Origin: Ruaniaceae bacterium KH17
Lineage (GTDB): Bacteria > Actinomycetota > Actinomycetes > Actinomycetales > Actinomycetaceae
Direction: 5' to 3'
DNA length: 64,000 nucleotides
Assembly: GCA_900199505.1 (NCBI GenBank)
Contig: FZQV01000006.1
Location: 1-64,000, forward strand
The position numbers and the translations under genes were made by a program. Of the stretch, positions 62,585 through 64,000 are shown one piece after another. How positions within the stretch are numbered: the stretch's first letter is position 1; every line of letters begins with the position of its first letter. The notes under the pieces were generated by a model. That model was not told the origin of the DNA. It saw only the letters and a list, made by a program, of their open reading frames with translations, and did not search any database.

Positions 62585-63625
<1,041 letters not shown>

Positions 63626-63678: not shown

Positions 63679-63720
63679 GAGGCCCGGACCTGCAGAATCC
63701 TGTGGGCCCGGGCCTCTTTT
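63679..63720 (+). terminator. Rho-independent terminator of nrdF
   Basis: GAGGCCCG pairs with CGGGCCTC and is followed by TTTT. The long loop (about 22 nt) can form its own internal pairing GGACC/GGGCC. Confidence 0.8.
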
Positions 63721-63756
63721 CGTGCCTTCTCTCGAAATGAACAGAGGAGGACAGAG

Positions 63757-64000
63757 ATGGAGATCGATACCAGGAACCTGTGGCACGCGAGTGGCACGTG
63801 CGTACCTACGAGGCACGAGCGTGGTGGTCCGCTGATCGGGAGTTGGCTGCTAGGGGCTGCCGTGGTCGTGCCATATCGTGCCACAAGTGGCTGGTCCGAC
63901 AGCCTGGAATCCGCAGAGTTATGCGGTTCTCGGGGGATGCGGGGTCCGAATGGCACGGAGTGGCACGACCGTCCGCGAAGGTCTGCTAGTGGCCACGGGA
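63757..64000 (+). CDS. Possible small protein, open at window end
   Basis: An ATG at 63757 follows a near-perfect ribosome site GAGGAGG with 6-nt spacing, and the frame stays open for 81 codons to the window edge. The residues (MEIDTRNLWHASG, then PLIGSWLLGAAVVVPYRAT) match nothing I know and codon use (AGG, CTA, TTA) is atypical. It may be the start of an accessory gene; equally a chance frame in a motif-rich region. Confidence 0.35.
   Translation, partial: MEIDTRNLWHASGTCVPTRHERGGPLIGSWLLGAAVVVPYRATSGWSDSLESAELCGSRGMRGPNGTEWHDRPRRSASGHG
63781..63967. repeat. Three paired TGGCACG motifs
   Basis: TGGCACG at 63781 and 63792; inverted CGTGCCA at 63867 and 63877; TGGCACG at 63951 and 63961. 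Within pairs the step is 10-11 bp, and pairs are about 85 bp apart. Looks like phased protein-binding sites. Confidence 0.55.

Follow-up and report, generated by a model that had tools for sequence, protein, structure and literature searches.

The Brevibacterium Lanthipeptide Island (BreLI) is described as an ICE of 96–100 kb that carries conjugation genes, and its excision and circular form were shown by PCR, according to the accessible parts of the two reports (PMC6579920; PMC5719810). In the published passages at hand, the arm-type sites of actinobacterial integrases are mostly termed putative. In cluster K1 mycobacteriophages, arm words with T versus G are on record, and integrase substitutions at positions 17 and 19 were proposed as the cause (excerpts of Pope et al., PMC3203893). 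No paper joining arm-type integrase sites and ribonucleotide reductase was found in the open-licence literature, and the text portions retrieved from it contained TGGCACG with an integrase or attP only in fly, Gateway cloning, and Pf phage contexts.

Near the end of the window, that is, the whole 64-kb stretch of DNA that was analyzed, six exact copies of TGGCACG form three pairs between nrdF and an integrase gene. All six are exact word matches and are listed here as putative arm-type sites:

63781–63787, plus strand: site 1 (pair 1), TGGCACG
63792–63798, plus strand: site 2 (pair 1), TGGCACG
63867–63873, minus strand: site 3 (pair 2, inverted)
63877–63883, minus strand: site 4 (pair 2, inverted)
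63951–63957, plus strand: site 5 (pair 3), TGGCACG
63961–63967, plus strand: site 6 (pair 3), TGGCACG

The words of a pair start 11, 10, and 10 bp apart, successive pairs are offset by 86 and 84 bp from start to start, and the middle pair is oriented opposite to pairs 1 and 3, which agrees with an earlier sequence-only reading of six motifs in three pairs of alternating orientation, with steps of 10–11 bp and about 85 bp between pairs. That reading also called for counting the word. TGGCACG is not enriched over the whole 64-kb window (17 copies against a shuffle mean of 14.6, with 34 of 100 shuffles reaching 17), but the local cluster is beyond chance: against the background of the contig itself, at least six copies in 187 bp have a probability of about 1.7e-12, or about 7e-6 once multiplied by 8192 words and 520 windows. 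When the whole 97-kb contig was scanned with a step of 1, only TGGCACG and the self-overlapping CGCGCGC reached at least six copies per 200 bp. The 2.72-Mb genome contains three direct TGGCACG pairs separated by a gap of 1–6 bp, and all three belong to this array.

The array is embedded in the following features, with coordinates continued beyond the window along contig C49, which runs 33 kb further:

62603–63625, plus strand: nrdF, an ORF with matches in 98 of 101 genomes of the family; the proposed integration target is at its 3′ end
63612–63623, plus strand: putative attL core ACTGGGAGTTCT, recognized from its sequence, second copies in relatives, and the BreLI repeat
63679–63720, plus strand: GC-rich hairpin (about 63679–63716) followed by a T run, terminator-like, recognized from its sequence and conserved in the attL of relatives
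63757–64000 (to 64011), plus strand: leader frame of 84 codons with a strong ribosome site, holding all six sites
64008–65357, plus strand: tyrosine integrase, 449 aa (PF00589)
65347–65553, plus strand: excisionase, 68 aa (TIGR01764)
68182–68580 (L002:8182-8580): Mutator-type transposase fragment inside the element
68794–69543, minus strand: XhoI-type endonuclease of a restriction-modification pair
69554–71245, minus strand: methyltransferase of the XhoI-type restriction-modification pair

The integrase gene starts 7 bp past the window end (64008), and its product is a tyrosine recombinase according to its score against PF00589 (42.4 bits; cut-off 27.1); among the 21 sequences of alignment A1, the catalytic residues R249, H359, and R362 are invariant and H385 and Y394 nearly so. 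The excisionase encoded next to it scored 35.5 bits against TIGR01764 (cut-off 28.8). Beside the excisionase gene, a protein of 814–841 aa (L002:5754-8279, contig 65754–68279) had no Pfam, PADLOC, or NCBIfam match, and the transposase fragment that comes after it is possibly a sign of element decay. The XhoI-type pair is followed by a 356-aa protein without a match, then by a PGPGW-family gene and a glyoxalase-like gene, both of which look chromosomal. About 9 kb of genes lie between nrdF and the next chromosome-like gene; the PGPGW gene bounds the element only loosely, because in a relative of the same family (G014) it lies about 3 kb past nrdF on the strand opposite to that in the window. 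The G+C content is 56–61% for the cargo genes, 64% for the integrase and excisionase genes, and 65% for the window. The suspicion that the array stood at the border of an accessory region is thus supported by the genes that follow, namely an integrase, an excisionase, an unassigned gene, and the XhoI-type pair. A scan of nine proteins between 64.0 and 73.9 kb gave no match to a replication or partition family, or to a conjugation family, so that the region does not locally qualify as an ICE. A second integrase, 32% identical, is encoded elsewhere in the same genome (G000:C45:66801-67850, L007).

The window core ACTGGGAGTTCT lies at the 3′ end of nrdF, as in an nrdF-targeting element, and shares 11 of 12 bases with the BreLI repeat and with the core ACTGGGACTTCT common to attL and attR of relatives, from which it differs by one base. 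Three hosts (L017, L018, and L019) with differing nrdF codons have an identical sequence from the core onward, which places the exchange point within the core. Since the hairpin is on the element side of the core and its conservation goes along with that of the element, it was probably brought by the element; the words do follow a hairpin, as the sequence-only reading had stated, but this hairpin is probably not nrdF's own terminator. A tRNA target was rejected, since the window locus (L002) contains no tRNA gene.

Related integrases were found at 39 loci in a scan of a species-genome collection, all in other Actinomycetota, the hosts including Leucobacter, Microbacterium, Gulosibacter, Pseudoclavibacter, Mycetocola, Brevibacterium, Nesterenkonia, Isoptericola, Tessaracoccus, and Arthrobacter. 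Searches at E 1e-60 recovered the integrase from 10 of 398 genomes of one family, from 7 of 60 of a second family, and from 21 of 366 of a genus. Within the family to which the window belongs, none of 31 other nrdF loci contained it in the flanks examined; no relatives were found in viral contigs, nor among 72,556 plasmid records at E 1e-40. Upstream nrdF DNA was present at 37 of the 39 loci, as a rule 0.3–0.4 kb before the integrase gene; at L011 the nrdF end was seen as a 42-bp match only, and at L026 nrdF lay 1.3 kb from the integrase gene. The two loci without upstream nrdF were L016, with matches only after the core, and L045, which begins inside the integrase gene. In L026 (Brevibacterium sp. 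CS2), an insert at about 2.87–3.93 kb splits nrdF and the region that follows it from pair 3 and the integrase gene.

Excisionase homologues were found at 31 of the 39 loci, mostly directly after the integrase gene. The 71 downstream proteins scanned from 22 relatives included TraG-type coupling proteins, single-strand binding proteins, and a TrwC relaxase, and at least some relatives therefore look conjugative. Seven of these 71 proteins are DprA-like (PF02481, with matches also to the PADLOC ShosA/PsyrA models); the gene was identified directly in L008 (5538-6515, minus strand) and inferred from 62–68% identity in L009, L013, L014, L020, L022, and L028.

A second copy of the nrdF end was found on the same contig and strand in six cases, 10–48 kb downstream in five and 116 kb downstream in one, and the second core copy is preceded by GAGTAC, GAGTAT, or GAGAAC instead of nrdF codons. 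A P-arm word pair was present before the core in eight of ten fetched regions, at −71/−60 from the core and, in one case, at −81/−70; in L131, its second word reads TGGCATG. The two regions without such a pair (L129 and L130) are the 3′ ends of further nrdF-like genes. Arm words thus flank the core on both sides in relatives, with the P′ pairs in attL and the P pair in attR. In Gulosibacter chungangensis (L123/L151; G101 contig C16, 193.8–194.5 kb), a partial integrase of the same family directly follows an attR-like region, an arrangement that suggests tandem elements at one nrdF.

Very probably, the six words are arm-type (P′-arm) sites of the downstream tyrosine integrase, and they would lie in the attL of a BreLI-related element recombined into the last nrdF codons. 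They are read as arm-type attL sites, as in lambda and L5, on account of the nrdF-end repeat of relatives, the fourth pair, and the BreLI repeat; the sequences show the location, the conserved geometry, the core repeats and fourth pair of relatives, and the covariation with one integrase residue, and binding, looping, and excision are inferred. The integrase would grip the paired sites through its N-terminal arm-binding domain and cut the core with its catalytic domain. Roughly one helical turn separates the words within a pair and roughly eight turns separate the pairs, and integrase monomers would most likely bridge the arm pairs and the core through DNA bending, as in lambda. Four pairs would allow different subsets to be used for integration and excision, with the excisionase setting the direction of recombination. 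The element would supply the last nrdF codons, the stop codon, and the hairpin, so that nrdF stays whole.

Searches for a direct repeat, for the core, and for a P-arm pair did not recover the right end of the element in the window's genome, which is a draft of 72 contigs. No second core (attR) with up to two mismatches was present downstream of nrdF on the contig. Elsewhere in the genome, ten places match the core with two mismatches; two of these are on the same contig, upstream of nrdF, and none of the ten adjoins a P-arm-like pair. The P-arm pattern with one mismatch matched 16 other places, in a range comparable to that of a backward control (12). Arm sites were found on the attL side only in this genome. 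The local element may be a fossil that has lost its right end, or this end may lie elsewhere; because no right end was found, integration of the window copy is argued from its relatives, and we infer from them that it once moved.

The layout of the array, 7-4-7-68-7-3-7-67-7-3-7 (spacers 4-68-3-67-3), is identical in 37 of 39 distinct arrays, these being the 47 leader frames minus L012, L043, and identical sequences; L012 has spacers of 68/66. Some elements carry GGGCACG in place of TGGCACG, and arrays were scored with the first base left out. This first base at sites 2–6 follows the residue after a W-G motif in the integrase (Ser15 in the window numbering): W-G-Ser goes with T and W-G-Arg with G at 34 of 34 loci of a first set (23 Ser, 11 Arg). 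The first set comprised 40 rows (the window and 39 loci), from which six were dropped: L026, with DNA inserted in the array and a remaining pair that reads TGG with Ser; L040, L043, L044, and L045, truncated or without upstream DNA; and L046, a decayed Arg locus with a mixed array. A second set consisted of 41 further loci, of which 26 were dropped for a 400-bp stretch identical with the first set and two (L151 and L174) for lack of a scorable array; the same rule held at sites 2–6 in all 13 that were left (10 Ser, 3 Arg), which are relatives of first-set elements and thus not fully independent. Over the 39 distinct arrays, each of sites 2–6 is T in 26 of 26 Ser types and G in 13 of 13 Arg types, and the five sites of an array always agree with one another. 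Site 1 is looser (T 21, G 4, and A 1 in the 26 Ser types; G 12 and A 1 in the 13 Arg types).

The P-arm pair does not strictly follow this rule. All eight cases have T at the first site of the pair; at the second site, G occurs in the four Arg-type elements (L122, L124, L125, and L126), and also in the Ser-type element of L008 (L123). The second site is likewise G in L127, where the integrase is not linked, and T in L128 and L131.

Among the integrase columns scanned in 47 proteins, column 15 alone predicts the base fully (0.879 of 0.879 bits), the next best reaching 0.399. In the excisionase, no column tracks the word (best 0.297 of 0.797 bits in 29 proteins from first-set loci), and the column scan thus does not support the excisionase as the binder. 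The recombinase sites envisaged in the sequence-only reading are supported by these data, as an integrase adjoins the array and the first base of sites 2–6 follows an integrase residue and not an excisionase residue.

The Ser/Arg type changes ten times on a tree of the rest of the integrase (41 rows), and at least five of these changes are forced by well-supported branches. Sister pairs were hand-picked from this tree, L036/L166 not being scorable and L008/L037, a tenth opposite-type pair, being too distant throughout. The nine opposite-type pairs are 81–96% identical from the core to pair 1 and 88–98% over codons 61–330, but only 59–66% in the 250-bp block from pair 1 to the W-G motif; five of six same-type pairs are 91–99% identical in this block, the sixth (L008/L165) being 76% identical. 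The array and the first integrase codons thus appear, from these alignments, to be exchanged as a block of about 250 bp.

We tentatively propose that Ser or Arg at position 15 may set the T or G at the start of the word, and that the array with the first integrase codons may form a swappable cassette of about 250 bp which keeps apart the complexes of elements using the same nrdF, even in tandem. A different and rather unlikely explanation is that the association merely reflects hitch-hiking of neighboring sequence rather than recognition. Linkage may explain part of it, because the residue lies near the sites and both are on one exchanged block, and the P-arm pair, which is outside this block, does not keep strictly to the rule. 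Hitch-hiking accords less well with a single perfectly associated column, with the constant agreement among sites 2–6, and with at least five changes of type on the tree. From the W-G motif onward, the integrases of L009 and L142 are identical except at 9 of 415 residues, and Ser/Arg is their sole difference in the first 62 residues from the motif, yet their words are of opposite type; linkage alone would not single out one residue in this way. These two proteins are also unlike at residues 2–4, ahead of the motif.

Recognition of the words by the integrase N-terminus was also considered from its predicted structure. Residues 15–66 are predicted to form a beta-beta-beta-alpha domain (pLDDT 87.9), and residue 15, Ser or Arg, is at the start of the first strand. 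With VIA-align, the top matches of this domain were AP2 domains (Z 5.3, 49–50 residues, rmsd 3.2), a weak similarity; those with the Tn916 integrase N-domain (Z 4.0, 48 residues, rmsd 2.5, with unrelated folds ranking between) and with the arm-binding domains of the P4-like and HPI integrases (Z 3.5 and 3.2) were weak as well, and Foldseek returned no match for the isolated domain at E 0.001. For the whole integrase, the first Foldseek match was lambda Int, which, aligned from residue 16, ranked eighth by Z (Z 14.1, rmsd 16.6 over 305 residues). AP2-type sheets sit in the DNA major groove, and Arg commonly reads G. The covariation of the words with residue 15 supports an arm-binding role for this predicted domain.

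The sites might instead mainly be operators that regulate the integrase gene, bound by the integrase or the excisionase, with recombination not needing all of them, a reading that we regard as improbable. It draws on the position of all six sites in the leader frame right before the integrase gene and on the precedent of intS in prophage KplE1, for which the accessible part of the report describes an attL that overlaps the integrase promoter and demonstrates negative autoregulation (PMC2951348). A fourth pair at the far end of the element in relatives and the lack of covariation between excisionase residues and the word speak against it; operators are, moreover, compatible with arm sites and not opposed to them. 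The regulatory option of the sequence-only reading may thus hold in addition, with the integrase perhaps controlling its own gene through these sites. If the words are arm-type sites, the integrase may repress itself through the P′ pairs, because all of these lie just before its gene.

That the repeats are a by-product of a conserved 84-residue leader protein is highly unlikely. The frame, correctly noted before as overlapping the motifs and having a perfect ribosome site, spans 84 codons (63757–64011), and its stop codon TGA overlaps the ATG of the integrase. In 43 of 47 loci it has 83–84 codons and overlaps the integrase start, and its length is kept in 24 of 28 clusters, whereas with shuffled linkers the mean probability that it stays open is 0.34. 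However, substitutions are even over the codon positions (107, 86, and 96), G+C is flat over the positions, and the ratio is the same in a wrong frame (0.77 versus 0.79 and 0.97). One antisense frame is open as well, in 39 of 43 cases (0.29 expected), and the leader frame has no NCBIfam or PHROGs match. A conserved leader protein was rejected, as the codon-position counts reveal no codon-level constraint; the leader may couple translation to the integrase gene.

A further reading takes the words for iterons or, as the sequence-only reading had considered, for a partition site, in a plasmid-like accessory region. Paired phased repeats near an accessory border do look like iterons, and the D29 record offers the label 'iteron' for its own att repeats. 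This reading was rejected as extremely improbable, since the nine scanned proteins include no replication or partition family, no integrase relative was found among 72,556 plasmid records at E 1e-40, and the words track a residue of the integrase.

The natural variants at this one chromosomal site number in the dozens and amount to an internally replicated recognition rule. Near-identical integrases that are one arm-domain residue apart, from the W-G motif on, and whose six words are all unlike make recognition directly testable, as well as any mutual avoidance among elements that use one target. The att architecture described here applies to nrdF-targeting elements beyond BreLI and helps to delimit such islands in genomes.

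Compared with known systems, the element resembles BreLI in its target, as BreLI integrates at the 3′ end of the class Ib ribonucleotide reductase beta gene, and in its core: the 12-bp BreLI repeat AGAAGTCCCAGT, as given in the available text (PMC6579920), is the reverse complement of the core ACTGGGACTTCT of relatives. L023 and L024 are BreLI strains named in that text, and they carry a related integrase and the same array. The window region differs in its size of about 9 kb, its XhoI-type pair, the lack of a conjugation family among the scanned proteins, and the right end that was not found; arm sites are not described in the accessible portion of the published BreLI text.

Like those of lambda and Tn916, the present integrase probably has two parts, with a predicted beta-beta-beta-alpha N-domain, although the structural scores of the isolated domain are weak. 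The closest phage integrases are that of Actinomyces phage xhp1 (38.8%) and then those of the L5/D29 kind (about 31%; for D29, 30.9% identity with 90% query coverage). D29 has repeats near or upstream of its integrase gene, some in pairs 11–12 bp apart, but their word is another (AAGGTCGC-like) and D29 is a phage. In our own comparison of K1 phages, CrimD has Leu19 with T and Anaya has Arg19 with G, among other differences. That case involves few phages and several candidate residues, whereas the present one involves a single residue, 39 distinct arrays, and a second set. A natural switch of arm specificity is thus not a new idea, as the excerpts of the K1 study make clear (PMC3203893); the present analysis adds the narrowing to one residue, the number of cases, and a second set.
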